In this document: positions 38,735 through 59,692 of the stretch, piece by piece
Position numbering within the stretch: position 1 is the first letter of the stretch
How the letters are laid out: each line of letters opens with the position of its first letter
DNA from: Flavobacterium sp. YJ01
Lineage (GTDB): Bacteria; Bacteroidota; Bacteroidia; Flavobacteriales; Flavobacteriaceae
Length of the DNA stretch: 64,000 nucleotides
NCBI RefSeq assembly: GCF_029320955.1
Contig: NZ_CP119757.1
Span: 4,464,001 to 4,528,000, forward strand
Reading direction: 5' to 3'
Program-made: the position numbers and the translations under genes
The notes under the pieces: generated by a model
What the model was told of the DNA's origin: nothing
What the model saw: only the letters and a program-made list of their open reading frames with translations
Databases searched by the model: none

Positions 38735-40393
38735 TTATTTTTTTAGAGCAGCGCCACCTGGCATTGTTTCTGGTTTTAGTTTGAATTTACTGTATTCTAC
38801 AACTCCAGTTTTATCGGCCCAGTCAAAATATTTGGCAGAAAGCTGGTTTACGATTCTAGGATTTTGAGCAGCAACATTGGTGGTTTCGCCTCGATCTGTT
38901 TCTAGATTGTAAAGCTCCCATTCGTAAGAAGGATAGATAGAAACCAATTTCCACTTTCCATCACGAACGGCTCTATTTCCAGCTCTTTCCCAGAATAAAG
39001 GTTCGCCGCGATTTACTTCAGAAGCATTTTCAAACAAAACAGGAAGTAAACTTTTTCCAGCTAATGGATTAGAATTTACGCCATTTAAATTTTTAGGATA
39101 TTCAATTCCAGCCAATTCATAAAAAGTAGGAGCTAGGTCAATAATATGTCCAGTTCCTTTATCAATTCTTCCTGCTTTTATTTTTGAAGGAAACCAAGCG
39201 ATAAATGGCGAACTAAAACCGCCTTCGTGCATATTGTTTTTATATTGCTGTAAAGGTGTGTTTGATAAATAAGCCCAATTTTGTTCCTGATAATCAAAAG
39301 ATCCAGAAGTTCCAACAGGCCCTTCATTTCGAACCAAACCTCTTCCTAACGGATTGTAAGTGTTAAATCCGCCTTGAGCGCCATTATCAGAAATAAAAAT
39401 AATAAGTGTGTTTTTGTCTTTTTTAAGGGCTTTCAGTTTGTCTAAAACTTTACCCACGTTTTGATCCATATTGTCTACCATTGCGGCGTAAACTTCCATT
39501 TTGGCTTTCCAAAATTGTTTTTCATCGTAAGTCAGTTTGCTCCATTCTGGAACTTCTGGATCTCTTGGCGAAATGGTTTGGTTGGGAAGTAAAATACCAT
39601 TGGCTTTTAATTTCTCAATTCTTTTTTCTCTCAAAACATCCCAGCCTTCATCAAATTTTCCTCTGTATTTTGCAATATCAACTGGTTTTGCTTGCAACGG
39701 CCAATGCGGAGCAGTAAACGCTAAGTATAAAAAGAACGGTTTGTTTTCTTTGTTTTGTTCGTCTAAGAAAGTCACGGCATTATTTCCGATTTCATCTGTA
39801 AAATAATAAGAATCATCTTTTGGATGCAGTTCTTCGTTATTGCGAATTAATTTTACCGGATAAGGTGTTTTGCCAAAAGGCAAAGGTTTGGTATCGAAAT
39901 AATTAGAAGCACCTTTTAAGATGCCATAAAATTTATCAAAACCTCTTTGGTTCGGCCATTGCGCTTGATCTTCAGAACCAACGTGCCATTTTCCAGATAA
40001 AAGTGTGCTGTATCCGCCAGAACGGAAAACTTCGCCTAAGGTTAAAGATTCTTTGTTTAAATAACCTTGATAAGCTGGCAATCCTAAATTGACATCAAAA
40101 AAACCAACGCCGGCTTTATGCTGATATTGACCTGTTAATAAAGAAGCTCTTGTTGGAGCGCAAATAGAATTGTTGTAAAATTCGCGAAGACGAGTTCCTT
40201 CTTTTGCCAATCGATCTAAGTTTGGAGTGTTAATTTCTGAACCATAATTTCCTAAATCAGAATAACCCATATCGTCAACCATAATCAAAATGATGTTAGG
40301 TTTTGATGCATTATTCTGAGCATTAGATTTGGAAGTAAACACCGTTCCAGAAAGAAGAAAAGCAAGTGCAACGTTTTTAAGTTTGGTATTCAT
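38735..40393 (-). CDS. Arylsulfatase (S1 family), secreted
   Basis: 552 residues with a signal peptide (cut after SNAQ near 26), so periplasmic. Hydrolyses sulfate esters using formylglycine made from C78 in the C-x-P-x-R motif CAPTR. Metal Asp pair at 40-41 (VDDMGYSD), GKWHVG, the DNGAQGG metal box and the MHEGGFSSPF basic segment are all present. Last gene of the minus-strand sulfur locus, 38 bases after the exporter gene. The maturing enzyme (FGE or anSME) is not in this window. Confidence 0.93.
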   Translation of the reverse strand: MNTKLKNVALAFLLSGTVFTSKSNAQNNASKPNIILIMVDDMGYSDLGNYGSEINTPNLDRLAKEGTRLREFYNNSICAPTRASLLTGQYQHKAGVGFFDVNLGLPAYQGYLNKESLTLGEVFRSGGYSTLLSGKWHVGSEDQAQWPNQRGFDKFYGILKGASNYFDTKPLPFGKTPYPVKLIRNNEELHPKDDSYYFTDEIGNNAVTFLDEQNKENKPFFLYLAFTAPHWPLQAKPVDIAKYRGKFDEGWDVLREKRIEKLKANGILLPNQTISPRDPEVPEWSKLTYDEKQFWKAKMEVYAAMVDNMDQNVGKVLDKLKALKKDKNTLIIFISDNGAQGGFNTYNPLGRGLVRNEGPVGTSGSFDYQEQNWAYLSNTPLQQYKNNMHEGGFSSPFIAWFPSKIKAGRIDKGTGHIIDLAPTFYELAGIEYPKNLNGVNSNPLAGKSLLPVLFENASEVNRGEPLFWERAGNRAVRDGKWKLVSIYPSYEWELYNLETDRGETTNVAAQNPRIVNQLSAKYFDWADKTGVVEYSKFKLKPETMPGGAALKK

Positions 40394-40431: not shown

Positions 40432-41694
40432 TTATTTACTAAAAAGTAAAAAAGCGATTATAAGCGTAATAATGATGTTGAATAATTGTGCGATTAAGAA
40501 AGCAATCAAAGGTTTCTTGCTGTTATTTTGAAGCAAATCTTTGAAATTGGTTTCTAAACCAATACTGGTAAACGCCAATGCAAACCAAAGTCCTTGCAGA
40601 TTTTTTAAGCTATCTTTTACCGTGTCGCGAGTTTCGGGTGTAATGAAAAATGAAAAAACAAGCGAAGCGGCAATGAAACCGATAACAAATTTTGGAAAAC
40701 GTTCCCAAATCACATTGAGCGTTGGTTTTGATTCTAAAACTTCTCCAGATTTGTTATGTGTGTAAGTCCAATAAACAGAAATGGCAAAAGCTGCAATTCC
40801 TAATAAAACATTTTGAGAAAACTTTACAATCGTACTAATTTTTAATGCCGTTTCCCCGACCAAAGTTCCAGAAGCAACCACAGCACCAGAAGTATCGATG
40901 CTTCCTCCAAGCCAAGCTCCCGTAACTTCTTCAGGAAAATTGAAATATTTAGCAATAATGGGCATAAAAATCATCATCGGAATTGCAGTTACCAAAACGA
41001 TAGAAATGACATAAGACAGTTTTTTAGAATCTCCTTTTATCGCGCCCGAAGTTGCAATCGCAGCAGAAACACCACAAATGGAAACAGCACTAGAAATCAT
41101 CATTGTTAATTCGTCGTCAACTTTTAATTTCTTGCAAAGCCAAAAAGCAAAATACCAAACGGATAAAACGACAATTAAAGCTTGAATTAATCCTAAAGAT
41201 CCTGCTTTTAAAATGTCTGAAAAGATGACGCTTGTTCCCAATAAAACCAAGCCGATTTTGACAAAAACTTCTGTTGAAAGTGCCGATCGTAACCAATCTG
41301 GAAGTTTGAAAAAGTTTCCAATCGCTAAACCAATTATCAAACTAAAAATAACCGCCTCTAAATTGATGGATTTGATGGCAGAATTTCCTGCGAGAATTAG
41401 TGCAGCTAGAGTCAAAACATAAACTATTGGAAAAGTAAATAGAAAATATTTTACGGATTTTCCAATTAAAAAAGCACCAAAAGTTCCAATAGAAATTAAA
41501 TATATAAATTGAATGAAAAGTATTTTAAGGTTTTTAAAATCAAATACTTTCGCTGTTAAATCAGTAGTGTCTGACCAGCTAAAAACGGGAACTTCTGGAA
41601 GAAAGATAAAAAGTGAAATTCCAATAATTATAAATCCGAGAATTACAACGGTCCAGTCTTCGTGAATAGTAAATGGTTTGGTTTGAGTTGACAT
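40432..41694 (-). CDS. YeiH/UPF0324-family putative sulfate exporter
   Basis: 420 residues with about ten membrane helices. The signature stretches LLGTSVIFSDILKAGSLGL, CGVSAAIATSGAIKG and GGSIDTSGAVVASG identify the YeiH (UPF0324) family, whose members are proposed sulfate or sulfonate-derived anion exporters. Located between two sulfatase genes, so export of excess sulfate, or of another sulfur anion, fits well. No direct evidence for substrate. Confidence 0.9.
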   Translation of the reverse strand: MSTQTKPFTIHEDWTVVILGFIIIGISLFIFLPEVPVFSWSDTTDLTAKVFDFKNLKILFIQFIYLISIGTFGAFLIGKSVKYFLFTFPIVYVLTLAALILAGNSAIKSINLEAVIFSLIIGLAIGNFFKLPDWLRSALSTEVFVKIGLVLLGTSVIFSDILKAGSLGLIQALIVVLSVWYFAFWLCKKLKVDDELTMMISSAVSICGVSAAIATSGAIKGDSKKLSYVISIVLVTAIPMMIFMPIIAKYFNFPEEVTGAWLGGSIDTSGAVVASGTLVGETALKISTIVKFSQNVLLGIAAFAISVYWTYTHNKSGEVLESKPTLNVIWERFPKFVIGFIAASLVFSFFITPETRDTVKDSLKNLQGLWFALAFTSIGLETNFKDLLQNNSKKPLIAFLIAQLFNIIITLIIAFLLFSK

Positions 41695-41788: not shown

Positions 41789-43408
41789 TTACAAATCGAC
41801 AAAATATTTCTGCTTTCCAAAATCAAATTCATAATACGTTAAATTAGGCCATAGAGGTTTAATTAATCCTTTTTCCCAATTTTGTAATGCGGTTTGTAAT
41901 TCTTTTACTTTTTCAGGATTTTTAGAAGCCAGATCGGTAGTTTCAGATTTGTCTTTGGCGAGATTATAAAGCCATGTTTCGTGTGTTTTTCCGCTTACAA
42001 TCAATTTCCAGTCGCCGCTTCGAATCGCTTTTGCATCGCCCGAACGCCAAAATAAATCTTTGTGTGCTTGTTTATTTTCGTTTACAGTTTTCACTAAATC
42101 TACACCGTCATAAACTCGGTCTTTTGGTAAATCAGAACCAATTGCGGCGGCGATTGTTGAAAAAATATCTAATGTGCTAACAGGCGTTTTGTAAACGGTG
42201 TTAGGTTTTATTTTTCCTTTCCACGAAAGTGCAAAAGGAACATTAATTCCGCCCTCAAAATGCGAAAATTTACCGCCTTTTAATGGCGCATTTGTTGTTG
42301 CAAACGTATAATCAGCGCCGCCATTGTCGCTTGCAAAAAAGATTAAAGTATTTTCTTCAAGACCTTCTTTTTTTACTTTTTCACGGATTCTTCCAATTGC
42401 ATCATCAAGTGCACTAATCATCGCAAAATAAACACGTTTGTTTTCGTCTTTTACATTCGGAAAACGATCATAATATTTTTTACGAACTTGAAATGGAGTA
42501 TGTGGCGCATTAAACGGAACATATAATAAAAACGGTTTCGTTTTATTTTTATCGATAAAAGCTTCTGCTTCTTCTGCAAATTTTTCCGTTAAATAAGCCT
42601 TTTCATCAATAATGGTTGAATCACGACGAATTTGTCCAATTCCGACACGGCCTTTTCCCCAAATCATTTTATCGGTAAAATCTTTATGATGGTGATTGAT
42701 AATATCTGGATTGTTGTCTTCTGGCGCAAAAAGCGAAAATGCCTGATAAAATCCGTAATGATAATCGAAACCACGATCTAAAGGAAAAAATCCTTTGTTA
42801 TGTCCCAAATGCCATTTTCCAATTATGCCAGTGCTGTATCCTTCGCGTTTTGCCAAATCTGCAAAAGTGATTTCAGATTTTGGCAAACCTTGCGTAGCGA
42901 TTGAAGCATCATTTGGATATTCGATTTTATCATTTAATCTCCAATTATTGGTATTTAGGATATATTTAAAAGCGTAATATTCTAAATTGTTTTTGGGATA
43001 ACGATCGCCCGGCTGATATTCGTGCCCGAAACGTTCCTGATATCTTCCTGTAATCAATCCGGCTCTAGAAGGCGAACAAATAGAAGAGGAAACATAACCT
43101 TCTGTAAAAGTGACTCCAGAAGCCGCCAAAGAATCAATTTGCGGAGTTGGAGTAGATTTTCCTCCGTAGAGCGAAATATCATATTTTCCTAAATCATCGG
43201 CAAGTAAAATGATGATATTAGGTTTTTTTGCTGAAGTCGCAGAAGTATCTTTTTTAGAAAGAAAAGCTGCTTTTCCTGCCGCTAATTTTTCATCGGTTTT
43301 GACTAATGTTCCGTCGGTATTAATTGGCCAGAATAAAAAGGCTGCGAGAACAATAAGCACGATTAAAATGGGAACAACAATTTTGGTTATTTTTTTATAG
43401 TTTGCCAT
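41789..43408 (-). CDS. Sulfatase (S1 family), membrane-anchored
   Basis: 539 residues. A single N-terminal hydrophobic helix (9-27, no clear cleavage site) anchors it to the periplasmic face. Formylglycine site C111 in CSPSR, metal Asp pair at 71-72, complete IGKWHLGH motif and ASDNGGADYTF box. It has the same catalytic set as the 552-residue enzyme but a different N-terminus, suggesting a different substrate or location. Confidence 0.93.
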   Translation of the reverse strand: MANYKKITKIVVPILIVLIVLAAFLFWPINTDGTLVKTDEKLAAGKAAFLSKKDTSATSAKKPNIIILLADDLGKYDISLYGGKSTPTPQIDSLAASGVTFTEGYVSSSICSPSRAGLITGRYQERFGHEYQPGDRYPKNNLEYYAFKYILNTNNWRLNDKIEYPNDASIATQGLPKSEITFADLAKREGYSTGIIGKWHLGHNKGFFPLDRGFDYHYGFYQAFSLFAPEDNNPDIINHHHKDFTDKMIWGKGRVGIGQIRRDSTIIDEKAYLTEKFAEEAEAFIDKNKTKPFLLYVPFNAPHTPFQVRKKYYDRFPNVKDENKRVYFAMISALDDAIGRIREKVKKEGLEENTLIFFASDNGGADYTFATTNAPLKGGKFSHFEGGINVPFALSWKGKIKPNTVYKTPVSTLDIFSTIAAAIGSDLPKDRVYDGVDLVKTVNENKQAHKDLFWRSGDAKAIRSGDWKLIVSGKTHETWLYNLAKDKSETTDLASKNPEKVKELQTALQNWEKGLIKPLWPNLTYYEFDFGKQKYFVDL

Positions 43409-43604: not shown

Positions 43605-44312
43605 TCACTTCGAAGCCAATGCCACATCAACATCCTTTTTCAAATCGTTAAAACCATCTTTTTTGAAAACAACTTTTCCATTTTGATATAAAATTAAAGT
43701 TGGAAAAACCTTTACCGTTTTTAAATCGGCAATTACTTGCGGACTCGTTTCCAAATCAATTTCTATGATTTTTAAATTTTCGCCATATTGTGTTCTGATG
43801 GTTTCTAGAACTGGTTTTACTTTTGTACAAGCGCCACAATATTTAGAGCCAATATCGACCAAAACAGTTTTGTTTTCTGTTATGATTTTATTGTATTCAG
43901 AAAGCGTTAATTTGCTTTTCGAATTGGCATAAAAAGGTTTTCCGTTTCCGATCCAGTTTGCAATTCCGCCTTCTAAACTGTACGCTTCTTTAAAACCGTT
44001 TTTTAATAATTCGTCAGCTAACCAAACGCTTCTTCCAGCTCCAATTGAATAGGTAAAAACGGGTTTTGATTTGTCTAATTTTGCTACTTGTGCCACGTAA
44101 TCTTTCGATTCTAAATTGAAATTTACGGCGCCGTTAATATGGTTTAAAGCAAATTCTTCTGGACCGCGCGCATCAATTATCTGTGGTTTTTTCTCCGCTT
44201 GAATTTTATTGTAAAAAATATCTAACGAAACGGTATTTGAACTTTTATTTTGCGAAAAACCTACTGTTGTTAAAAGCAAAAAAAGTACTGTAAAAATGCT
44301 ATTATTTTTCAT
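43605..44312 (-). CDS. Rhodanese-like domain fused to thioredoxin, secreted, rhodanese nucleophile missing
   Basis: 235 residues with a signal peptide (1-20, cut after GFSQ). Residues 28-128 form a rhodanese domain (IIDARGPEEFALNHINGAVN, LEGGIANWIG), but the active-loop Cys is Ser at 89 (YSIGAGRS), so sulfur transfer by the usual route is unlikely. Residues 133-235 are a thioredoxin with CGAC at 159-162 and the cis-Pro in VFPTLI. In the sulfatase locus it may keep periplasmic thiols reduced or carry sulfur-containing ligands. Confidence 0.88.
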   Translation of the reverse strand: MKNNSIFTVLFLLLTTVGFSQNKSSNTVSLDIFYNKIQAEKKPQIIDARGPEEFALNHINGAVNFNLESKDYVAQVAKLDKSKPVFTYSIGAGRSVWLADELLKNGFKEAYSLEGGIANWIGNGKPFYANSKSKLTLSEYNKIITENKTVLVDIGSKYCGACTKVKPVLETIRTQYGENLKIIEIDLETSPQVIADLKTVKVFPTLILYQNGKVVFKKDGFNDLKKDVDVALASK

Positions 44313-44401: not shown

Positions 44402-45469
44402 TTAAGCTTGTTCTAAAACTGGCGTTTGTTCTTCAGTTTGTACTGTATTTTCTACAGGTTTGGCTTTTAATGGAAATGCCAATACACCTTCAGCAAGAGA
44501 ACTTCCTTCTTTTTTAGATTTGAATATTGGCCATAAAAACTGTGCATACCATTCTTCTTGTTTGTATGATTTTGTTCCATAAGATTCTGGAAATTTACGA
44601 GTGATTAAGCCAGTTCCAAAAATCATATCCCAGATAAAAAACATGTTTCCGAAGTTTCCTTTAAAGTGCCCAACACCGTCTCCGCTTGTGTCTGCGTGGT
44701 GCGCGTGGTGCGTTGCAGGAGTTGAAATCAGTCTTTCTAAAACCCAAGCAATTGGATGTAAAACTTTGTATTTATAAAAAGGTTTGTCCCACGCAATACT
44801 GGAGTGCGCGCCCAAAGTGATGATGCTTTTAATTACTAAAACAAACAAAGCAGGTAATCCTAAACCTAAATAAGTTAAAGTTGCAGTCAAATAGATTTGC
44901 GAAAAGAAAACCGTGTAAATAAAGTTTTGTCTAGAAGCCATCGCCATTCCCATGTAAGGTGCAGAGTGGTGTGTTCTATGAAAACGCCATAAAAATGGTA
45001 CTTGATGATGCAATCTGTGGTACCAATATTGCGTTAAATCGTCGGCAATTGCGATTAGGAAAAATCCACCCCAAAAAGGAACCCATGATAATGAATTTGC
45101 CGCGTTTGGCAATAAATAAGGTAAAGCCGTTAAACTGAAAAAAGCAATTACAGGCGGTAAAAGTAATTTTGGTGCTAAGAAACAAACGATATCAATTTTA
45201 CGTTCTTCGCCAGTCCAATCGTCATCGTATAAACCAGCTGCAAATTCTACAATTCCCAAAACGATTGTAAATACGATTAATCCCCAAGATCTGATATTGG
45301 CAAAAACGGGTTGTGCAAATTCTAGCCAAGAAGGCAATGTCAAATGTGATTCGCTAACTGCTCCTCCCGTTAATTTAAAGTAAAGGTAAATTGCCAATAC
45401 GGGCAATGAATAAATGAAGAAACTAATCGTTAAGTCTCTCACTAATTTTTCTTTTTGAACTATTGCCAT
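44402..45469 (-). CDS. Sterol desaturase / fatty acid hydroxylase superfamily membrane protein
   Basis: 355 residues with four to five membrane helices and the di-iron His boxes HRLHH, HRTHH and HHAHH in the expected order (YWYHRLHHQVPFLW, then RFHRTHHSAP, then THHAHHADTSGDG). A membrane oxygenase acting on a lipid or alkyl chain. In this locus it could hydroxylate an alkyl or steroid skeleton exposed by the sulfatases, or modify a sulfolipid; this is inference from position only. Confidence 0.88.
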   Translation of the reverse strand: MAIVQKEKLVRDLTISFFIYSLPVLAIYLYFKLTGGAVSESHLTLPSWLEFAQPVFANIRSWGLIVFTIVLGIVEFAAGLYDDDWTGEERKIDIVCFLAPKLLLPPVIAFFSLTALPYLLPNAANSLSWVPFWGGFFLIAIADDLTQYWYHRLHHQVPFLWRFHRTHHSAPYMGMAMASRQNFIYTVFFSQIYLTATLTYLGLGLPALFVLVIKSIITLGAHSSIAWDKPFYKYKVLHPIAWVLERLISTPATHHAHHADTSGDGVGHFKGNFGNMFFIWDMIFGTGLITRKFPESYGTKSYKQEEWYAQFLWPIFKSKKEGSSLAEGVLAFPLKAKPVENTVQTEEQTPVLEQA

Positions 45470-45702: not shown

Positions 45703-47628
45703 TTATTTATTCTTTTTGTGAATGCGTTGTCTTAAAACATCTTGCCAATCAATTAGCGGATAAAGATTGTTTTTCTTCGCTTGATTGTCAAATTCCGCCT
45801 GAAGCTCTTTCAGTTTTTCTGGATATTTTTTAGCTAAATCGACTCTTTCGTTAAAGTCAGTGTTTAAGTTATAAAGTTCCCAAACGTCATTATCAAAATT
45901 ACTTGGCTCATCTTTTTTAGATAAAGCATCATTTTGAGTAATATCAATGTAATCAGGATGATGCGGAGCCGAAGCTTTCCAGCCATCTTTATAAAGTGAT
46001 CTTGAACCAAAAATATAGTAATGCTGAATTTTATGTCTTGAAGGTGCTTTAGCGTCAGCATAAGAATAGGCTAGAGAAGTTCCTTGAATTGAATCCTGTT
46101 CAATTCCTCTGATTCTTTCTGGCGCTTTAATTCCGACAGTTTCTAAAGTGGTTGGCAGAATATCAATTACGTGTCCGTATTGTGTACGAATTCCAGGGGT
46201 TTTAATTCCTTTTGGATAATATATAATAAGTGGATTTCTTGTTCCTCCTTCAGAATGAGCGTCTTGTTTTAAATTTCTAAAAGGTGTATTTGCAGCCAAA
46301 GCCCATCCATGCGGATAATTTTCTTTTGTCGCCGCTGGAGTTCCTAATAAATTAGTTTTAGCTAAATTACTTTTCAAAGACTCTTCTTTAATTTTCGGAT
46401 CAGAAAGTTTTCTAAAAGATTCGTCAATTAAACCAATTGAACTTCCTTCTTTACTTGCTCCGTTATCTCCTAAAACAATATAGAAAATGGTATTATCCAG
46501 CTGATTAATAGATTTTAGATGATCTACAATTCGGCTTACCTCATAATCGGTATATTCTAAATATCCAGCGTATATTTCCATAAACTGAGCGTATAGTTTT
46601 TTCTCATCTGGAGATAAAGTATTCCAAGCCGGAACATAAGAATCACGAATTGTTAATTTTGAATCAGAAGGAATTAATCCTAATTTTTTCTGATTGGCAA
46701 TTACTTTATCGCGATAAGCATCCCAACCATCATCAAATTTGCCTTTGTATTTATCGCTCCATTGTTTTTCTACTTGGTGCGGAGAATGTGTTGCTCCCGG
46801 CGCATAGTATAAAAAGAACGGTTTGTTTGGTGCGGCATGTTTCTGACGATCGATATAGGTAATCGCTTTATCTGTAATCAATTCGCTTAAATGTTTTCCT
46901 TTTAAATCGGTTACGAATTCATTTTTAGATTTGTCTTTTTCTGCACCATTTAATTTTGTACTTCCATTTAACCAAGTCTGATCTTCAACCAAATCAGGAT
47001 TGTATTGATCGGTTTGAGAACCTAAGAATCCGTAAAAATGCTCGAAACCTTTTCCAGTTGGCCATCTGTCAAACGGACCCGCATCTGTTGCATCTTCGTC
47101 TGGAGTAACACCATATTTTCCGACTGCAAAAGTGTTGTAACCGTTGTCACGCAAAATCTCTGCAATAGTTCCCGCCGAAGAAGGAAGTCTTCCGTCCCAG
47201 CCAGGAAAACCTGCTGACATAGAAGTATGCGAAAATCCGCCAACATGCACAGCGTGTGAATTACGACCTGTTAACAAAGCAGAACGTGTTGGTGCACAAA
47301 TTGCTGTGGTGTGAAAGTTGGTATAACGTAATCCGTTATTGGCTAGTTTTTCAAATGTAGGTGTATTGATTAAACCTCCAAAAGCGCTTGTCGCTCCGAA
47401 GCCAACATCATCCAATAAAATCCAAACCACGTTTGGTGCGCCTTCTGTTGCTTTTACTGGTTCAATCCAATATTCTTTAGAATCTGCTAAAGTTTTACCC
47501 ACAACACCTTTGTAATTTGGATCAGGTTTTGACTGTCCAAAGCCAAATTGTGCAAAAAGTAAAACTGTAAACAAAAGCCCTTTTTGCGGAGTTTTGAGAT
47601 TTGGTATGTTATTTTTTATTTTTTTCAT
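45703..47628 (-). CDS. Arylsulfatase (S1 family), secreted, tandem copy A
   Basis: 641 residues with a signal peptide (cut near GFGQ at 32). Formylglycine site C111 in CAPTR, metal Asp pair at 73-74 (LLDDVGFG) and metal box GDNGASKEG. The large size and FDRWPTGKGFEHFYGFLG resemble Pseudomonas-type arylsulfatases. The conserved G-K-x-H reads GKYG (K171, G173), so a sulfate-binding His is missing. Strongly similar to the next gene, clearly a tandem duplication. Confidence 0.92.
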   Translation of the reverse strand: MKKIKNNIPNLKTPQKGLLFTVLLFAQFGFGQSKPDPNYKGVVGKTLADSKEYWIEPVKATEGAPNVVWILLDDVGFGATSAFGGLINTPTFEKLANNGLRYTNFHTTAICAPTRSALLTGRNSHAVHVGGFSHTSMSAGFPGWDGRLPSSAGTIAEILRDNGYNTFAVGKYGVTPDEDATDAGPFDRWPTGKGFEHFYGFLGSQTDQYNPDLVEDQTWLNGSTKLNGAEKDKSKNEFVTDLKGKHLSELITDKAITYIDRQKHAAPNKPFFLYYAPGATHSPHQVEKQWSDKYKGKFDDGWDAYRDKVIANQKKLGLIPSDSKLTIRDSYVPAWNTLSPDEKKLYAQFMEIYAGYLEYTDYEVSRIVDHLKSINQLDNTIFYIVLGDNGASKEGSSIGLIDESFRKLSDPKIKEESLKSNLAKTNLLGTPAATKENYPHGWALAANTPFRNLKQDAHSEGGTRNPLIIYYPKGIKTPGIRTQYGHVIDILPTTLETVGIKAPERIRGIEQDSIQGTSLAYSYADAKAPSRHKIQHYYIFGSRSLYKDGWKASAPHHPDYIDITQNDALSKKDEPSNFDNDVWELYNLNTDFNERVDLAKKYPEKLKELQAEFDNQAKKNNLYPLIDWQDVLRQRIHKKNK

Positions 47629-47682: not shown

Positions 47683-49605
47683 TTATTTTGTAGTTTCTGT
47701 ATCTGCAGGTTTAGTAACTTGTTTTACTAAGTCCTGAAGGGTTTTTCCTTTATCGGCAGCAGTATTATGAATTCTTCTGTTGTAAACATCTTGCCAATCA
47801 ATCAACGGATAAACATTGTTTTCTTTTGCCTGTTCATCAAATAATTTTTGAAGTTCAGCTAATTTTTCAGGATATTTTTTTGCCAAGTTATTACGCTCGT
47901 TAAAATCTTCGTTTAAGTTGTATAATTCCCAAACGTCTGTGTCGAAATTACTTGCAACTGGTTTTTCATTTTTACCTAAAGATTGTTTTACCGCAAATGA
48001 ATCTGGTAAATGCGCAGCAGAAGCTTTCCATCCATCTTTGTAAATGGCTCTGTTTCCGAAAATATAATAATACTGTACTTTATGTAAAGATTCTGCTTTC
48101 GGATTATCTAAGGAAGCTTGAAATGAAGATCCTTGAATGATATCTTGTTTAATTCCTTTGATATATTCTGGCGCTTTAATTCCTGTAATGGCTAAAGTTG
48201 TTGGAAGTAAATCGGTTACGTGGCTGTATTGATTTCTGATACCGCCTTTGTCTTTAATTCCGTTTGGATAAAAAACAATTAAAGGATTTCTTGTCCCACC
48301 TTCAGAATGTGCATCTTGTTTCCAGTTTTTGAAAGGAGCATTTGTTGCTTGCGCCCATCCCAAAGGATAATTGGTATTTAAACCTTTTGCTGTTCCAATT
48401 TCACCAATATTATTTAAGTTGCTTTGAAGATTTTCTTCCTCAGATTTTCCTTGAGAAAATAAACTTTGGTTAATTGTTCCTTGCAAAGTTCCTTCTTTAC
48501 TCGCTCCGTTATCTCCAATCGCAACAAAAATTAAAGTATTATCAAGTTGTCCGCTTTGTTTTAAATAATCAACAACTCTTCCAATTTCATAATCTGTATA
48601 CGTCAAAAATCCTGCGTAAACTTCCATGAATCTTGCATATACTTTTTTCTGATCTGGCGTTAATTTTTTCCATTCTGTAATTAAAGCATTACGTTCTGGT
48701 AAAACTGCATTGGCAGGAATCGTTCCTAATTTCTTCTGATTTGCTAATACTTTTTCGCGGTAAACATCCCAGCCTTCATCAAATTTTCCTTTATAAGATT
48801 CAACCCATTTTTCAGCTACTTGATGAGGTGCGTGAACAGCTCCTGGTGCATAATACAAGAAAAACGGTTTTCCTGGTGCTGCTTTTTGCTGTTTTTGAAT
48901 ATAGCTGATTGCTTTATCAGTAATTAATTCATTTAAGTGACGTCCGTCTGGTTTAATGTGAACTTGATCTTCCACCAAATCAGGATTGTATTGATCGGTT
49001 TGAGAACCTAAGAATCCGTAGAAGTGATCGAAACCTTTTCCAGTTGGCCATCTGTCAAACGGACCTGCATCTGTTGCATCTTCATCTGGCGTAACACCAT
49101 ATTTTCCAACAGCAAAAGTATTGTAACCGTTTTCACGTAAAATCTCTGCGATGGTTCCTTTATCAGAAGGAATTCGTCCGTCCCATCCAGGAAAACCTGC
49201 TGATAAAATAGTATGAGAAAATCCACTAACGTGAACTCTTCCAGAATTTCTTCCTGTTAACAAAGCCGCGCGGGTAGGAGCACAAATTGCTGTTGTATGG
49301 AAGTTGGTATAACGAAGTCCATTGTTGGCAAGATTATCAAAAGTTGGCGTGTTTATTAATCCTCCAAAAGCAGATGCCGCTCCAAATCCGACGTCATCCA
49401 ATAAAATCCAAACCACATTTGGAGCACCTTTTGGCGCTTTTACAGGATCTGGCCAATATTCTTTAGAATCGGCAAGAGTTTTTCCGATTGTTCCTTTAAA
49501 CTCTTGTTGTTCTTGAGCAAAGCCAAATTGCGCAACCAGCAATGCCGTAATCAGAAGCCCTTTTCCAGAGCTTTTGATTGGAGTGGTATTTTTAATTTTT
49601 TTCAT
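47683..49605 (-). CDS. Arylsulfatase (S1 family), secreted, tandem copy B
   Basis: 640 residues with a signal peptide (cut near GFAQ at 31). Formylglycine site C108 in CAPTR, Asp pair at 70-71, GDNGASKEG box. As in copy A the G-K-x-H motif reads GKYG (K168, G170). It lacks a stretch of about 20 residues that copy A has after residue 220 and carries a longer C-terminus. Upstream member of the tandem pair, 150 bases downstream of susD with a repeat between. Confidence 0.92.
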   Translation of the reverse strand: MKKIKNTTPIKSSGKGLLITALLVAQFGFAQEQQEFKGTIGKTLADSKEYWPDPVKAPKGAPNVVWILLDDVGFGAASAFGGLINTPTFDNLANNGLRYTNFHTTAICAPTRAALLTGRNSGRVHVSGFSHTILSAGFPGWDGRIPSDKGTIAEILRENGYNTFAVGKYGVTPDEDATDAGPFDRWPTGKGFDHFYGFLGSQTDQYNPDLVEDQVHIKPDGRHLNELITDKAISYIQKQQKAAPGKPFFLYYAPGAVHAPHQVAEKWVESYKGKFDEGWDVYREKVLANQKKLGTIPANAVLPERNALITEWKKLTPDQKKVYARFMEVYAGFLTYTDYEIGRVVDYLKQSGQLDNTLIFVAIGDNGASKEGTLQGTINQSLFSQGKSEEENLQSNLNNIGEIGTAKGLNTNYPLGWAQATNAPFKNWKQDAHSEGGTRNPLIVFYPNGIKDKGGIRNQYSHVTDLLPTTLAITGIKAPEYIKGIKQDIIQGSSFQASLDNPKAESLHKVQYYYIFGNRAIYKDGWKASAAHLPDSFAVKQSLGKNEKPVASNFDTDVWELYNLNEDFNERNNLAKKYPEKLAELQKLFDEQAKENNVYPLIDWQDVYNRRIHNTAADKGKTLQDLVKQVTKPADTETTK

Positions 49606-49650
49606 CTTTTTAATAGTTTTTAGTTATATGGCTTTTTTAATAGTTGTAAT

Positions 49651-49751: not shown

Positions 49752-49758
49752 TTAATAT

Positions 49759-51231
49759 TTAATATCCAGGATTCTGTGGTAAACCGTCAGGGTTGATATT
49801 TCTTTCACTTTGTGGAATCGGATAAAGATTATTTCTTTCCGAAACAGAGTTTTTAGCCGTTACTTTTTTCACTTCAGTAACCAAAGTTCCCCATCTCACT
49901 AAGTCAAACCATCTTTGTCCTTCTTGAACAAATTCTTTTTTGCGTTCTTCCTGAATTGCCGCTCTAAAAGTGGTTTGATTTAATCCAACTAAATCAACTG
50001 TTACATCTGGCGTTGTAATTGCCTTTCCAAAAGCTCTTCTTCTCACTTGATTAATCAATTCGTACGATTCTGCGGTTGGTCCGCTTTGTTCATTTATCGC
50101 TTCCGCTAAAGACAAAAGAATGTCCGCATAACGAATCACAGGAAAGTTGATTGCCACATTAGAAGGCGTTGCCAAATTGGTCAAATCCAAGTATTTTTTG
50201 AAAATTGGTTTTGGAAAAGTATAAAGTGTTCCTGTTGCAGGATTTAGCAATTGTTTGGCGTAGCTTACATCTCTTCTTTTATCTCCAGCGGCGTAAATAT
50301 CATAAAATAATGCAACGTCAGAAACTATATCGGCAGGTTCTGTTGCTGTAAATCCCGTGAAAGAAGTCGCTTGAAAAGTACTTCCGCTAGAACCATTTCC
50401 TGCTTGATTTGGTTCAAACTGAACAGAGAAAATATGTTCTTTTCCGTTCTTTTTAGTTTTAGTAAAAATATCTTGAAAGTCTTCAAACAAAGCATATCCG
50501 TAACCGCCATTAATCACTTCTCTCGCTTTTAAAATAGTATTTGGCCAATCTTTTCTTGTAATATACACTTTTGCCAAAATCGCTTTTGCAGCTCCAGAAG
50601 TAGCACGTCCAGCATCTGCTGTAGAGTAAGTTGCAGGCAAAGCTTCAGCATCTGTTAAATCTTTAATGATTTGAGCGTAAACTTCTTCGACAGTTGCTCT
50701 ATTGGTTTTTAAGCTTCCTAAATCAATAGATGTTGCTTCATGCAAAACAATCGGAACTCCGCCCCAAAGACGTACTGCTTGAAAATACAATAAACCTCTA
50801 ATGAATTTGGCTTCATTAATCAATCTAGTTTTAATAACTTCTGAGCCTGTTACTTTAGGAATATTATCAATGGCAACATTTGCTCTGTTTATTCCCGCAT
50901 AAATTTGTCTCCAAGCCACTTGAACACGGTCGGTAGTAGCATCGTGAGTTAAAGCGCTCATTGCTCTTACTTGCGGATTGGTTGCAGAAACTCCTGCTGC
51001 TGCATAATCAGAACCCATATCGGTTAAGAAATAAAGGTTTCTTCCAAATAAACTTTGTTCTCCTGGATCAAGGCTTAAAGAAGCATAAACAGCAGTTACA
51101 CTTGCTACAGCATCATCTTGAGTATTAAAATAATTGTCTTCGGTTACAAAAGAGTTTGGGGTTACCTCAAGCTCCGTGCACGATACCAATAAACCGGCAC
51201 TTAAAAGGAATGTTATAATGATCTTTTTCAT
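49759..51231 (-). CDS. RagB/SusD-family nutrient-binding outer-membrane lipoprotein
   Basis: 490 residues with a lipoprotein signal (Cys 18 in LLVSCTELE). The TPR-like helices and the C-terminal blocks NQVRRRAFG, EERKKEFVQEGQRWFDLVRWG and NLYPIPQSERNINP are diagnostic. It lids the SusC barrel and captures the substrate at the cell surface. The neighbouring sulfatases suggest an organosulfate or sulfated glycan ligand. Starts 17 bases after the susC stop. Confidence 0.96.
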   Translation of the reverse strand: MKKIIITFLLSAGLLVSCTELEVTPNSFVTEDNYFNTQDDAVASVTAVYASLSLDPGEQSLFGRNLYFLTDMGSDYAAAGVSATNPQVRAMSALTHDATTDRVQVAWRQIYAGINRANVAIDNIPKVTGSEVIKTRLINEAKFIRGLLYFQAVRLWGGVPIVLHEATSIDLGSLKTNRATVEEVYAQIIKDLTDAEALPATYSTADAGRATSGAAKAILAKVYITRKDWPNTILKAREVINGGYGYALFEDFQDIFTKTKKNGKEHIFSVQFEPNQAGNGSSGSTFQATSFTGFTATEPADIVSDVALFYDIYAAGDKRRDVSYAKQLLNPATGTLYTFPKPIFKKYLDLTNLATPSNVAINFPVIRYADILLSLAEAINEQSGPTAESYELINQVRRRAFGKAITTPDVTVDLVGLNQTTFRAAIQEERKKEFVQEGQRWFDLVRWGTLVTEVKKVTAKNSVSERNNLYPIPQSERNINPDGLPQNPGY

Positions 51232-51248
51232 TTTGATATATTTTTTAC

Positions 51249-54200
51249 TTAGAAAGTTACGTTCAAGCCCGAGATGAATGTTTTTGAGTTTGGATAAGAA
51301 CCAAAATCAATTCCCGGATATAAGTTGTTTTGTTCGTATGAACTTACTTCTGGATCATATCCAGTGTATTTTGTCCATGTAATTAAGTTTTCGGCAGATA
51401 TGTACACTTTTACACTTTTTGTTCCCAGTTTTTTAGAAACGCTTTTTGGTAATGTGTAGCCAAGAGTTATTAATTTCAATCTTAAGAAAGAAGCATCTTC
51501 AACATATCTTTCAGAAACAATTCCTAACGGTGAACTTGTCGCTCTCGGAATTTCATTGCTTGGATTTGTTGGAGTCCAACGATCATTCAATGTAGCCGCT
51601 GCGTTAGTTCCAAGAGTAGAAATTTCTAATTGCTGATTTAAAGCGTTGAATATTTTTCCGCCATAAGATCCTTGGAAAGAGAAATTCAAATCAAAATCAT
51701 TGTATGAAATGGTGTTGCTGAAACTTCCAACAAATTTTGGCTGAGAAGTTCCTAAATTTCCTTTATCCAAAGCATTGATAACACCATCGCCATTTGCATC
51801 TACATATTTTCTGTCTCCAACTTTAGTATTTGCCAAACTATTAATTTTTGGCTGAGTATTTACTTCTTCCTGAGTCTGGAAAATTCCGTTTGTTGTATAC
51901 CCCCAGAAAGTTCCTAAAGGCAGACCAACTTTTACAATAACAGGTTGTTGCTGTAATAAAGAACCGTTTGGAACTACAGGAAAAAATTCATTAACGCCAT
52001 TTCCGATTTCAGTAACTTTATTTCTGTTTAAAGAAAATACCACATTTGAATTCCATGCAAAGTTTTCTGTTTTCAGGTTTTCGGTTGTTAGTCCAACTTC
52101 AAAACCTTTATTTTCAACTCCACCAATATTTTGAAGAACAGTTGCATAACCAGAACTCAAAGGAACTGGAACGCTGATTAACAAATCTTTTGTTTTTTTG
52201 TAGTACACATCAAAAACAAAATTGATTTTTCGATCAAGTAATGATAAATCTAAACCAACATTATATTGATCTGTTTTTTCCCACTTCAAATCAGGATTTG
52301 CCAGTCGGGTAGGAGCGATACCAGTGTATAATGTTCCTCCAAAAGAATAATTTACAGAACCCATTGACGCTAGAGAAAGGTAATTTCCAATTTCTTGATT
52401 TCCTGTTGTTCCAGCTGTAATTCTAAGTTTAGCTTCGGTAACACCTTTAATATTGTTTGCAAATTCTTCATCTGTAATGTTCCAAGAAAAACCAGCAGAC
52501 GGGAAATAACCCCAAAGTGATTCAGAACCAAATCTTGAAGATCCATCGGCACGACCAGAAAGTGTAAAATTGTATTTTCCTTTATAAGAATAATTTACTC
52601 TTGCCAACCAAGATTTAAGTACGCTTTCGTAAGCTTCGCTATAAGGTTTTACAGCAACACCGTCTTGAAGTGCGTTGTAAGTATTGGCATCATTTACAAA
52701 AGTGTTTGCTCCAGCATTTACCACTTCACCTTTTGTATATTGAAGCGTGTAACCTCCTAAAGCAGAAAACTTATGATTTTCTCCAAAAGTTGTATTATAG
52801 TTTAATGTATTTTCATTCAAAACAGAACCAACTAAACGATCTCCAACAGAAGCTAAACCTTTCGTTCCAGCTCCAGTAGTTGTATTTGCAGGAGCATAAT
52901 AATTTTGTTTAGTATTTAAAACGTCGCCGCTTACTGCAACTTTTGCAGTTAGTTTTTTGGTGATTTTATATTCGCCAAATAAACTGGTCAATATTCTGTT
53001 TAAATTGGTCTGATTAGTTGTGTTTTCCAAATCATTAATCGGATTTGGCACATAACCATTTACAGAAGTCGTGTACGGATTATTGGTTACATTATAACTT
53101 CCGTCAGCGTTTTTTATAGGAACGACAGGCGCAGTCAAAACGGCAGCAACTAAAGGATTTGGAGTTCTTCCGCTTCCAGAAGTTCCTACGCCGTTTGCAA
53201 GAGAGTAAGTGTAGTTGGCATTTACTCCAAATTTGAAATTCTGAGAATAGTTTCTTTCGTAATTAGCGCGAAGAGAAATACGTTTAAAATCAGAACCTAA
53301 AACAATTCCTTCTTGATCAAAATAGCCAGCAGAAACCGAATATCTTGATCTTTCATCTCCGCCAGAAAAAGATAAATTATGACTCTGAACAGGAGCGGCA
53401 GTTCTAAAAGCCGCAGATTGCCAATCATAACTTCCAGAAGTTTTAAAAGCTTCTATTTGTGCAGCCGTAAACGAAGGAGCTTGACCGATACTTGCCTGAA
53501 CATCATTTCGTAAACTTGCCCATTCGCTGGCATTCATCAGTTTTAATTTCTTTGAAATATTTTGAAATCCGAAATAACCTTGATACGAAATATTATCTTG
53601 TCCTTTTGTTCCTTTTTTAGTCGTAATAATAACAACTCCATTGGCACCGCGAGAACCATAAATTGCTGTTGCAGAGGCATCTTTCAGAACTTCAATAGAT
53701 TCAATATCAGCAGGGTTAATAGTAGACAAAACGTTTACACTTGCACCTGCATAAGTAACTCCCGCAGAGCTGTTCGCGTTATCATTATAAATTAAGATTC
53801 CGTCAACAACATAAAGTGGTTCGTTACCTGCTGTAATTGAGTTTCCACCGCGAATACGTACGCTTGAAGAAGCACCTGGGCGGCCAGAACTTTGTGTGAC
53901 TACAACCCCAGCAACTGCACCTCTCAAAAGATTATCAGCAGAAGAAGTAACTTGAGATAAATTAGCTTTTGGAACAGAAGCCACAGAACCCGTAATATCT
54001 TTTCTTTTTTGAGTTCCGTATCCTACAACTACCAATTCATCAAGCTCTTGACGCTCTTCTTTTAGGTTAATAATTACTGGATTTTTTTCTACAATAACTT
54101 CTGCCTTTTTGTAGCCAATATAACTTACAATTAAAGTATAAGGAAATTTCTGTCCAGTTTGAAAATAGAATTTTCCTTCTGCATCTGTAATAACACCGTG

Positions 54201-54371
54201 AGTTGTTCCTTTAATAGTTACAGATGCTCCAATAATGGGTTGATTTGTAACATCATCGACTACAGTTCCATCCAATTTTGACTGAATAAGTGGGGTAGTA
54301 TTTTGGGCTTGTATGCCTGCTGTTATGAAGAGTAGAAACAGCAGTATGTGTATGTTTAACTTTTTTTTCAT
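51249..54371 (-). CDS. SusC/RagA-family TonB-linked outer-membrane transporter
   Basis: 1040 residues. A signal peptide (1-22) is followed by a carboxypeptidase-regulatory-like domain (33-115), a TonB-dependent plug starting LDELVVVGYGTQKRKDITGSV with the family's SIEVLKDASATAIYGSRGANG box, and a 22-strand barrel ending in TFISGLNVTF. Imports large or bulky ligands with SusD, powered by TonB. No ECF sigma/anti-sigma pair is nearby; regulation instead appears to involve the Cys-rich leader ORF upstream. Confidence 0.97.
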   Translation of the reverse strand: MKKKLNIHILLFLLFITAGIQAQNTTPLIQSKLDGTVVDDVTNQPIIGASVTIKGTTHGVITDAEGKFYFQTGQKFPYTLIVSYIGYKKAEVIVEKNPVIINLKEERQELDELVVVGYGTQKRKDITGSVASVPKANLSQVTSSADNLLRGAVAGVVVTQSSGRPGASSSVRIRGGNSITAGNEPLYVVDGILIYNDNANSSAGVTYAGASVNVLSTINPADIESIEVLKDASATAIYGSRGANGVVIITTKKGTKGQDNISYQGYFGFQNISKKLKLMNASEWASLRNDVQASIGQAPSFTAAQIEAFKTSGSYDWQSAAFRTAAPVQSHNLSFSGGDERSRYSVSAGYFDQEGIVLGSDFKRISLRANYERNYSQNFKFGVNANYTYSLANGVGTSGSGRTPNPLVAAVLTAPVVPIKNADGSYNVTNNPYTTSVNGYVPNPINDLENTTNQTNLNRILTSLFGEYKITKKLTAKVAVSGDVLNTKQNYYAPANTTTGAGTKGLASVGDRLVGSVLNENTLNYNTTFGENHKFSALGGYTLQYTKGEVVNAGANTFVNDANTYNALQDGVAVKPYSEAYESVLKSWLARVNYSYKGKYNFTLSGRADGSSRFGSESLWGYFPSAGFSWNITDEEFANNIKGVTEAKLRITAGTTGNQEIGNYLSLASMGSVNYSFGGTLYTGIAPTRLANPDLKWEKTDQYNVGLDLSLLDRKINFVFDVYYKKTKDLLISVPVPLSSGYATVLQNIGGVENKGFEVGLTTENLKTENFAWNSNVVFSLNRNKVTEIGNGVNEFFPVVPNGSLLQQQPVIVKVGLPLGTFWGYTTNGIFQTQEEVNTQPKINSLANTKVGDRKYVDANGDGVINALDKGNLGTSQPKFVGSFSNTISYNDFDLNFSFQGSYGGKIFNALNQQLEISTLGTNAAATLNDRWTPTNPSNEIPRATSSPLGIVSERYVEDASFLRLKLITLGYTLPKSVSKKLGTKSVKVYISAENLITWTKYTGYDPEVSSYEQNNLYPGIDFGSYPNSKTFISGLNVTF

Positions 54372-54473
54372 TTCTTTGTGTTGGTTTTAAGTAATTAACA
54401 AGACGCCCTGAGCACTGTTTATACAGCACTCTAAAAGTGTTCTTGATTTAGTGATAAATGTTCTTTAAGCCTC

Positions 54474-54520
54474 GCCATTTCTGTTGCCGCAGAAATGGCT
54501 TTTTTTATTTACAGCAACAG
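54474..54520 (-). promoter_or_regulatory. Candidate cysteine-responsive attenuator of the sulfatase locus
   Basis: Minus strand. The hairpin arms 54490-54499 (GCCATTTCTG) and 54474-54483 pair perfectly over 10 bases around a six-base loop. The Cys-codon stretch of the leader ORF (54510-54520) can instead pair with the hairpin's loop and flanks (54481-54491) over 11 base pairs including two G-U. The two structures exclude each other, the hallmark of leader-peptide control. There is no U run after the hairpin on this strand, so the end effect may involve Rho or mRNA access rather than intrinsic termination. On the opposite strand the hairpin plus T7 would act as a terminator. Confidence 0.6.
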
Positions 54521-54537
54521 GTTTGCATTGTTTTCAT
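54505..54537 (-). CDS. Leader peptide MKTMQTCCCK upstream of susC
   Basis: The ORF of ten codons plus TAA starts at 54537, 166 bases before the susC ATG. Residues 7-9 are three successive Cys (codons TGT TGC TGT). It is preceded by an A/T-rich stretch with a predicted promoter 30-60 bases upstream. Poly-Cys leader ORFs that tune sulfur genes are known from mycobacteria; this one precedes a sulfate-ester utilisation locus. That it is translated is inferred. Confidence 0.65.
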   Translation of the reverse strand: MKTMQTCCCK

Positions 54538-55348
54538 TTTAGTTTTTTTAATTGTTAGTTATTTTAATTTTGAAATATAGGTATGGTTTCAAGAATCAAT
54601 CGCATGCAGTAAAAAATGCATTTGAATGATTTTTGTATAAACTCAGTAAATATTTTTGGTGATGTATTTAAGAAATCTGCTTTTGAAATAAAGACTAAAA
54701 AGCACATAACTAAAAGTAGGTTTTTAACAACAGAAACACATATAACAAAAAGTGTTATAAGTGTATACTTTAGGAAGAATGTAATGCGATATGCTTTCTG
54801 TCGTTTTCACAATAATAATTTTTATGTTTGAAACATTATTTAAACTCTACTAATCCTATAGACAAAGTTAAATTTTATATAATAAAAACCAAAAGTTTGT
54901 AAAGTTTTTTTTGAAAAATATTCATTCCGAGCAATTTATATGAAAATATTTCTATCGTAATACCTTGTTTTTAAAGGCTTTTCGAATAATTTATAATTTG
55001 AACAAATGTTAAGGAAAATAATAATCCAGCATTTAAAATGTAGTATTTTATACTTGTTTTTTTCGTTTTTAAATTCTTCTAAAATTTAAAAACAAGCATA
55101 AAAACGTCGAGATGAGAGAAAAAGCATCTTATAATCAGAAAGTAATCAAACTTTTAGTCTGTTAATTACAGATTCGATTTAAGAAAATTCAAAACTAAAG
55201 ATAGTCACACTTAGTAATTCTAAAATTCTTACAATAGAACGTTTATAAATATTTAATTTCATTTGAAAATAAACACCCTTTTTTTATTGTAATTGTTTAA
55301 TATGTTGTATTTTAGAGCATTATTATATTAAAGACTAAATTATCTTTA
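54538..55348. other. Long intergenic region between the sulfatase and nitrate loci
   Basis: About 800 bases of very A/T-rich DNA between the divergent leader ORF and the nitrate operon. It holds the leader promoter (54572-54599). Near 55055-55096 there is an imperfect inverted repeat (CTTG-T-rich and TTTTTAAATT returning as AATTTAAAAACAAG). A 71-codon plus-strand ORF at 54616 has no domain and unconvincing composition. I see nothing else. Confidence 0.5.
54572..54599 (-). promoter_or_regulatory. Predicted promoter of the susC leader transcript
   Basis: Minus strand reads TTG (54599-54597), 17 bases, then TATATTTC (54579-54572). The second box matches TAnnTTTG in seven of eight positions. Start would be near 54565, giving a short leader before the ORF at 54537. 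Confidence 0.45.
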
Positions 55349-55366
55349 ATATGATATATGTCATAT
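55349..55366. promoter_or_regulatory. CRP/FNR-type palindrome upstream of the nitrate operon
   Basis: ATATGA-N6-TCATAT, arms 55349-55354 and 55361-55366, extended by one A/T pair. The TGA-N6-TCA geometry is that of CRP/FNR-family operators. Its centre is about 43 bases before the predicted start, the classical activator position next to the -33 element. Confidence 0.5.
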
Positions 55367-55367
55367 T

Positions 55368-55394
55368 TTGTAAGTATTTAAGATTTTAATTTTG
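55368..55394 (+). promoter_or_regulatory. Predicted promoter of the nitrate operon
   Basis: TTG at 55368-55370, 16 bases, then TAATTTTG at 55387-55394, a full TAnnTTTG match. The transcript would start near 55401, about 40 bases before the first ATG. Confidence 0.55.
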
Positions 55395-55442
55395 TTGCAT
55401 TATTGAAGTGCAACTTATTTCAATAATATTTAAAATTTTGAT

Positions 55443-56918
55443 ATGAATAACCTCTCTCTATCACACCGTATTTTATTTTTAAATACACTAGCTTTTACAG
55501 TATGTTTTGCATGCTGGACATTAAATGGTGTTTTAGTAACTTTTTTGGCAGATAAAGGAATTATTAATTTTACGGTTATTGAAATAGGCTGGCTACTAGG
55601 AATTCCAATTCTTTCGGGTTCTATTTTTAGGCTACCAATCGGAATTTTAACGGATAAATACGGTGGAAAAATTATTTTTTCAACTTTACTTTTATTATGT
55701 TCCATTCCACTTTTTTTATTGCCCTTCGCTAATTCCTTCTGGAGTTTTGCCGTTTTAAGCTTTTTCTTTGGATTGGTAGGAACGAGTTTTGCAGTTGGAA
55801 TTGGCTATACATCTGTCTGGTATCCAAAAGAATGGCAGGGTAGAGCTTTGGGAATTTTCGGAATGGGAAATGCAGGTGCGGCAATTACCACTTTTATTGC
55901 GCCAACTTTATTAAATTATCTATCAGAAAAAGATCCTATAAATGGCTGGAAAATGCTTCCGGTTATCTATGCGGTTGTTCTTGTAATTATCGGAATACTT
56001 TTTATTGTTTTTGCTAAAAACAAAACCAATCAGGGCGTTTCAAAAAATATAACAGAATTATTATCTCCGCTCAAAAAAACTAGAGTTTGGCGTTTTGGAA
56101 CCTATTACTTTTTAGTTTTTGGCTTTTTTGTTGCCTATTCGCAATGGCTTCTTCCCAATTTTATGAATGTTTACGGTACAACTTTAGTAATGGGTGGAAT
56201 GTTTGCCACAATGTTCAGTTTGCCTTCTGGAGTTATTAGAGCTTTTGGCGGATATCTTTCAGATAAATTCGGAGCTAGAAAAGTAATGTATTGGGTTTTA
56301 GGTTCTTCTATTGTGATTAGCTTTTTACTGATGTTTCCTAAAATGGAAATTTTTACTGCTGGTCCTGGTGTAATGGCAATGAATAATGGTGTTGTAACAG
56401 AAATTGCAGCAGATAAAATAGTTGTAAACGACAAAATACATCAAATAGAAGCTAAAAAAGATTCCGAAATAAACAGGCAATCTGTTTTTCCGGTAAAAAC
56501 ATCTTGGCAGGAAATCATAGTGAAACAAAATCAAGAAGTAAAAAAGAAAGAATTATTAGCGCAAGGAGTGACACAAATAAATTTTAGTGCCAATCTCTGG
56601 GTTTATTTAGTATTGGTAATCCTTATCGGAATTTCATGGGGAATTGGTAAGGCCGCTGTTTACAAACATATTCCAGAATACTTTCCGAATGAAGTAGGAG
56701 TTGTAGGTGGAATGGTTGGATTAATAGGCGGTTTAGGAGGATTTTTGGGTCCAATAATCTTCGGATATCTTCTTAATTACACTGGATTATGGACAAGTTC
56801 TTGGATATTTATTTTCGTAGTTTCTGTTCTTTGTCTTCTATGGATGCACAGAACAATAATAAATGCGACGAGAACTAAATTACCAAACTTTACAAGAGAC
56901 ATAGAAAGCAATCATTAA
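55443..56918 (+). CDS. NarK/NNP-type nitrate/nitrite transporter with extracytoplasmic insert
   Basis: 491 residues, twelve-helix major facilitator. The nitrate/nitrite porter Gly-rich signature is GIFGMGNAGAAITTFIAP (138-154), and motif A SDKFGARK (273-280) marks the cytoplasmic 8-9 loop. Residues about 301-381, between helices 9 and 10 and predicted periplasmic, are an extra domain not present in E. coli NarK. Part of it (IIVKQNQEVKKKELLAQG) resembles half of a barrel-sandwich fold. First gene of the nitrate operon. Confidence 0.88.
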   Translation: MNNLSLSHRILFLNTLAFTVCFACWTLNGVLVTFLADKGIINFTVIEIGWLLGIPILSGSIFRLPIGILTDKYGGKIIFSTLLLLCSIPLFLLPFANSFWSFAVLSFFFGLVGTSFAVGIGYTSVWYPKEWQGRALGIFGMGNAGAAITTFIAPTLLNYLSEKDPINGWKMLPVIYAVVLVIIGILFIVFAKNKTNQGVSKNITELLSPLKKTRVWRFGTYYFLVFGFFVAYSQWLLPNFMNVYGTTLVMGGMFATMFSLPSGVIRAFGGYLSDKFGARKVMYWVLGSSIVISFLLMFPKMEIFTAGPGVMAMNNGVVTEIAADKIVVNDKIHQIEAKKDSEINRQSVFPVKTSWQEIIVKQNQEVKKKELLAQGVTQINFSANLWVYLVLVILIGISWGIGKAAVYKHIPEYFPNEVGVVGGMVGLIGGLGGFLGPIIFGYLLNYTGLWTSSWIFIFVVSVLCLLWMHRTIINATRTKLPNFTRDIESNH

Positions 56919-56936
56919 AAATTAAATAAAAGAGAT

Positions 56937-58529: not shown

Positions 58530-58556
58530 ATAAGTAATCATTTAATTTTATTAAAG

Positions 58557-59606: not shown

Positions 59607-59615
59607 AAAAAAATA

Positions 59616-59672: not shown

Positions 59673-59692
59673 AAAAAATAACAAAAAACAAA

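Follow-up and report, generated by a model that had tools for sequence, protein, structure and literature searches.

A translated cysteine-codon leader as a probable control element of a SusCD–sulfatase operon in Flavobacterium

A short translated leader carrying consecutive Cys codons probably controls, in cis, a SusCD–sulfatase operon of Flavobacterium sp. YJ01, turning it on when cysteine or sulfur is short. We analyzed a stretch of 64,000 nucleotides (the window; contig NZ_CP119757.1, positions 4,464,001 to 4,528,000), and all coordinates below are those of the window. The elements of the leader are as follows.

54505..54537, minus strand: uORF1, MKTMQTCCCK*, with its ATG at 54537 and its TAA ending at 54505
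54511..54519, minus strand: three Cys codons, TGT TGC TGT, read from the sequence
54500..54506, minus strand: A7 tract 5′ of H1 (T7 on the plus strand), two of its A being stop-codon bases
54474..54499, minus strand: hairpin H1, GCCATTTCTG-CGGCAA-CAGAAATGGC, a perfect 10-bp stem with loop CGGCAA, identified from sequence, fold prediction and relatives
54481..54491, minus strand: loop side of an 11-bp pairing with 54510–54520, read from the sequence
54431..54478, minus strand: ORF from an AUG in the 3′ arm of H1 (MARLKEHLSLNQEHF*), with no sign of coding selection

The first-pass annotation of this DNA had described a ten-codon ORF with three successive Cys codons followed by a perfect 10-bp hairpin, and that description is exact; the second hairpin H2, the AUG within H1 and the plus-strand terminator geometry treated below were absent from it. 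The ten codons of uORF1 begin 166 bases upstream of the susC start and end five bases ahead of H1. An A-rich untranslated stretch precedes the ORF, with AAA directly 5′ of the ATG. As an A at −3 raises initiation in F. johnsoniae, according to the portion of PMC6847099 consulted, this start context is of a favorable kind.

Relatives were fetched by the SusC protein alone, from named genomes, and 80 of 123 confirmed sequences were kept (82–97% identical), nearly all labelled Flavobacterium. In each of the 80, susC is preceded by H1 and by a uORF containing two or more Cys codons side by side; the longest run is CCC in 58, CC in 20 and CCCC in two, and the stop codon lies 5–9 bases 5′ of H1. One of the records carrying the locus is L286, from F. 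johnsoniae CI04. A common test, asking for a uORF of 3–21 codons with CC within 300 nt of leader, was positive for 80/80 susC relatives, for 15/1400 shuffled leaders and for 0/28 SusC leaders from other genera (SusC 36–42% identical). Within the same genome it picked out 1 of 41 SusC leaders, namely that of the window; the genome's own paralogous leader has one Cys. The arrangement of Cys uORF and H1 is not a product of chance.

The peptide itself is under selection. By parsimony on the tree of the 80 susC genes, susC accumulates 2.45, 0.92 and 15.2 changes per site at the three codon positions. The central Cys, codon 8 of the uORF, shows 0/0/9 changes at positions 1/2/3, all of them silent, while codons 3 and 6 are free to change (2/10/19 and 6/25/14); codons 7 and 9 are less tightly kept than codon 8 (5/3/12 and 2/6/1). 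Silent change alone at codon 8, set beside freely changing codons 3 and 6, indicates that the uORF peptide is selected for Cys, and the short ORF with adjacent Cys codons is, on this comparative evidence, maintained by coding selection.

H1 alone is predicted at −15.4 kcal/mol, with a pair probability of 0.96–0.97 in the free leader; the 106-nt leader piece is only mildly more stable than shuffles (z −1.68, 13/200 shuffles as good). The hairpin is identical over 26 bases in 79/80 relatives. On the same tree its 26 sites show two changes, both in the loop, and the seven sites of the A7 tract show one, so H1 is conserved at the level of single bases. The ORF opening at the AUG inside H1 was considered as a second leader peptide and discarded: its changes do not fall on third positions, and some copies are frame-shifted or startless.

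A covariance model of the leader found a match in 110/398 genomes of the genus at E≤0.1. From all collected loci we extracted 151 distinct leaders, a few of them weak, falling into class A (72, like that of the window), class B (69) and ten others. Because a CC criterion was used to pick class A, its Cys counts carry no independent weight; the independent counts are those of the 80-relative set and the common test. Near invariance of H1 also means that covariation in class A cannot probe H1 pairing. Class B uORFs (MKKRMCCR-like, n=69) contain 0, 1, 2 and 3 Cys in 11, 21, 36 and 1 cases, and precede a two-gene SusC–SusD locus in the loci read. As a separate observation, the YJ01 genome holds such a two-gene SusC/SusD-like_2 locus (L039:10570–15183; G000:C1 330–335 kb) with the class B leader MKKRMCR, and both of its proteins are sulfur-poor.

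The Cys codons plus one base per side (54520–54510) are complementary to 54491–54481 over 11 bp, two of them G-U, just as the first-pass annotation had it, and the duplex is predicted at −13.4 kcal/mol with 10 of its 11 bp scored. The further claim, that only one of the two structures can form, is supported in part. Pairing between uORF and loop is stronger than for synonymous uORFs in class A (−13.47 vs −11.81 kcal/mol; 0/200 as good) and class B (−7.54 vs −6.75 kcal/mol; 1/200 as good), a test inflated by the relatedness of the sequences. Against the claim, swapping loops within a class costs no pairing (200/200 as good in class A, 74/200 in class B), and 14/62 class A uORFs open the Cys run with TGC, at the cost of one A-U pair in the competing duplex. 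Mutually exclusive pairing is thus partly supported, and possible in the window. An alternative helix beside H1, GAGGC/GCCUU, was set aside: it is 94% paired, shows no two-sided change and does not exceed shuffles.

Closer to susC lies H2.

54410..54431, minus strand: H2 upper stem-loop, covarying
54441..54445, minus strand: H2 lower stem, 5′ strand CAAGA
54399..54403, minus strand: H2 lower stem, 3′ strand UCUUG

Across 30 rows picked from the 80 relatives (27 distinct), 94.4% of H2 cells are paired and the covariation score is 0.279 vs 0.161 in shuffles, with 0/500 as high; two further measures, pairs with two-sided change and further pair types, are not above shuffles (103/500 and 476/500 as high). 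The sense promoter signal is weak. Rfam gave no match in the window at gathering score, and PHROGs, searched with SusD only, gave none. Separately, a stretch of about 40 bases covering the susC start and what lies just upstream of it (54369–54408) is nearly unchanged in the 80 relatives, a constraint exceeding the apparent need of initiation.

The genes behind the leader serve sulfur or cysteine supply, by Pfam assignment of sulfatases and a rhodanese.

51249..54371, minus strand: SusC (0 Cys, 3 Met)
49759..51231, minus strand: SusD
47683..49605, minus strand: sulfatase (Pfam)
45703..47628, minus strand: sulfatase (Pfam)
44402..45469, minus strand: fatty-acid-hydroxylase family protein
43605..44312, minus strand: rhodanese–thioredoxin protein (Pfam)
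41789..43408, minus strand: sulfatase (Pfam)
40432..41694, minus strand: PF03601/YeiH-like membrane protein, below the NCBIfam cut-off
38735..40393, minus strand: sulfatase (Pfam)

Judging from order and strand, the genes from susC to the fourth sulfatase may be taken as one operon. Its SusC, at 0.29% Cys+Met, is the lowest of 30 SusC measured of the 41 in the genome (median 1.58); the class B SusC, measured separately, has 0.57%. Among the 19 Sulfatase-domain genes of the genome, those of the operon take the four lowest places (0.47–1.63% vs 2.03–5.23% Cys+Met), a ranking with a chance of 1 in 3876 if relatedness is ignored. Two further products, the fatty-acid-hydroxylase (1.97%) and the YeiH-like protein (1.90%), have an unremarkable sulfur content. 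Leaving the leader evidence aside, gene content and protein composition point to an operon expressed when sulfur is short, and it is on them that we take cysteine or sulfur shortage to be the inducing state. The earlier proposal, that cysteine shortage switches on import and desulfation of organosulfates, would fit the selection for Cys codons, the sulfur genes and the sulfur-poor products, and to that extent it stands. Elsewhere in the genome, the second most sulfur-poor of the 30 SusC (0.60%; L140, G000:C1:2464688–2467597) has no Cys leader and may mark another sulfur-shortage locus.

Further copies of the leader (L043, L045) precede SusCD and sulfatase-like genes, some judged by N-termini alone; of the loci collected, L047 and L048 had their gene lists read in part. 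At L051 a related hairpin stands directly before a sulfatase, followed by CysE, CysK, a family 2A encapsulin and a cysteine desulfurase (HMM assignments), and L046 has the same gene order, judged by the look of its proteins. These two regions (L051:1137–7467 and L046:14084–20000) form a likely sulfur-storage locus in Flavobacterium with the related hairpin upstream; a cyanobacterial relative of the cysteine-desulfurase encapsulin rises in sulfur starvation, as stated in the part of PMC8049743 consulted. L040, L050 and L051 retain a related hairpin next to a uORF that lacks a Cys pair (at L051 an MCSCC ORF lies 160 bases further upstream), which counts against H1 serving Cys codons alone.

A wider spread across Bacteroidota, which the first-pass annotation had proposed to look for, was not seen. 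Among 349 genomes of the family, 51 gave a match at E≤1, three of them from the same genus. We inspected 27 loci from other genera (L090–L116), and in none does a Cys uORF end just before a hairpin in front of SusC. A short CC or CxC ORF occurs in three of these loci (L106, L107, L115) and was rejected as a sign of spread beyond the genus; in L106 the ORF is the terminator-like hairpin itself. Many of the 27 are ordinary opposite-strand terminators. L091, L092 and L095 have similar hairpins before STN-type SusC genes, as does L159 of the YJ01 genome (G000:C1:4220774–4220858); these H1-like hairpins lack a Cys uORF and could be opposite-strand terminators, and an A-rich stretch precedes those of L091 and L159. 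Two neighboring SusC genes (L119 and L127, G000:C1:2270254 and 2277030) have short upstream ORFs with Cys-Phe-Cys, maybe by chance. The sulfate-assimilation genes, also suggested earlier as carriers of such leaders, gave a similar result in this genome: no Cys leader was found in the upstream stretch examined before the cysteine-synthase-family genes or before TauE-cysH-cysD-cysN (490 nt before TauE). One CC ORF sits inside a gene ahead of L371.

The strongest mechanical hint is one of spacing, which is fixed: among the 130 leaders of classes A and B that contain a Cys codon, the last such codon ends 8–16 bases, and the stop codon 2–11 bases, 5′ of H1. Given the usual ribosome footprint, H1 would stay free while a ribosome waits at the Cys codons, and a ribosome at the stop codon would sit over the base of the hairpin. 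With ample cysteine, the ribosome would reach the uORF1 stop, cover the H1 base and keep H1 open; the open hairpin would expose the AUG in its 3′ arm, ribosomes would enter the stretch leading into H2, and susC expression would fall. When cysteine is short, the ribosome would halt on the Cys codons, blocking their pairing with the loop and leaving H1 free to form, and the H1–H2 form of the leader would allow susC expression. We regard this output route through H1 opening, the internal AUG and H2 as rather doubtful in its particulars, and the effect of H1 on susC is one that we infer.

Several observations weigh against a Cys leader. Neither H1 nor H2 is followed by a T run on the minus (susC) strand, and no minus-strand terminator-like site lies there, confirming the earlier remark that no U tail follows the hairpin; the leader therefore lacks the mark of a classical transcription attenuator. 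The plus strand has that geometry: H1 is followed there by TTTTTTTATT, with T7 directly after the stem, and tops the list of 11 terminator-like sites in the 12 kb of 48000–60000. H1 could accordingly be the terminator of a plus-strand cis-antisense RNA running across the leader and susC start, with the Cys uORF as a separate feature, much like the DonS-type RNAs of Bacteroides PULs, which are antisense to susC homologues and 78–128 nt long according to the part of PMC7366714 consulted. The H1-to-susC distance of 117–129 in the 80 relatives resembles that size, the A7 tract is almost unchanged on the tree, and where one side of H1 has changed, the wobble pair usually falls on the antisense strand (in sense, 25 cells read A-C and 3 read G-U, with the outermost pair supplying 18 of the 25; the units are cells and not events). 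In class B the consensus fold likewise favors antisense (SCI 0.44 vs 0.27 sense), whereas class A favors sense (0.88 vs 0.53). The H2 upper stem, with 28 sense G-U vs 4 A-C cells, speaks for the sense strand, the lower stem counts 0 vs 7, and single-sequence z-scores hardly differ between the strands (about −3.0 to −3.4 with H1), so the evidence on the functional strand is divided. We regard the antisense RNA as a serious but less probable rival: no antisense promoter rose above shuffles in the 230 nt scanned with a simple consensus (7.33 vs 7.47 in class A and 6.91 vs 7.27 in class B), and the Cys codons and their fixed spacing would go unexplained.

Two other readings seem much less probable. 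A perfect 10-bp inverted repeat, near invariant in 80 relatives and with class B arms that at times change independently, might serve as a DNA operator bound by a sulfur-responsive regulator, with the uORF playing a secondary part. Such an operator would leave the A7 tract, the tight spacing to the uORF stop and the Cys selection unexplained; the additional H1-like pair of L050, added on both arms, better fits a stem, and the YJ01 genome has two strong H1 copies only, both in susC leaders. We consider it improbable. Conservation at the peptide level would also suit a short metal- or thiol-binding Cys peptide that senses nothing, but most copies have 7–12 residues, their length and non-Cys residues vary freely, and the position of the uORF is tied to H1, which makes this the hardest of the alternatives to credit. 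Control by a translated Cys-codon leader itself has to accommodate, besides the missing terminator and the H1 wobble cells, the H1-like hairpins that lack a Cys pair, the class B uORFs with no Cys or one, the H1-internal ORF free of coding selection, the two unremarkable H2 measures and the two operon products of ordinary sulfur content. It remains the reading that we think likely.

More tentatively, and at somewhat worse than even chances, the leaders may form an RNA-based sulfur-starvation regulon in Flavobacterium, in which paralogous, terminator-free leaders, each with a Cys uORF, a near-invariant H1 and a covarying H2, would sense the Cys-tRNA supply at several operons through a ribosome that halts just before the hairpin or ends atop it, turning on sulfur-poor importers and sulfatases. 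If true, this would give Bacteroidota a new amino-acid-sensing architecture, perhaps coupled to an antisense RNA ending at the same hairpin. SusCD loci have been studied mostly as carbon uptake systems; the set described here seems to be tied to sulfur supply, and the composition of its proteins saves sulfur. The sensor would be small, three codons and one hairpin, and would mark sulfur-scavenging SusCD loci from sequence alone. It would likely be a terminator-free case of amino-acid sensing, in organisms that make no use of Shine-Dalgarno sequences.

In the open-licence literature we found no cysteine leader in Bacteroidota, a search that could have missed a subscription paper; leader-peptide attenuation has been suspected for amino-acid operons of F. 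psychrophilum (PMC9723704, in the part consulted). As in classical leader-peptide attenuation, regulatory codons sit in a short ORF near a hairpin, but here the hairpin has no U tail on the sense strand. The leader resembles DonS in its place at susC homologues, its size and the terminator-like hairpin on the opposite strand, and differs from what the consulted part of PMC7366714 describes in its Cys uORF, its H2 sense-strand covariation and the lack of an antisense promoter in our scan. Candidate Cys leader peptides of Actinobacteria cys operons share Cys runs near the stop codon and, in the consulted part of PMC1262725, the absence of a transcription terminator; that part reports no conserved hairpin for Mycobacterium, whereas H1 and H2 are conserved here, before other genes and in another phylum. 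Closest are the polycysteine short ORFs of mycobacteria, described as cysteine-responsive attenuators (Canestrari et al. 2020, as cited in the consulted parts of PMC13236596 and PMC9094748), which likewise place a short Cys-run ORF before sulfur genes. Those ORFs are called leaderless, whereas the Flavobacterium ORF follows an A-rich untranslated stretch, stands before SusCD–sulfatase loci and is joined, right after its stop codon, by a near-invariant hairpin.
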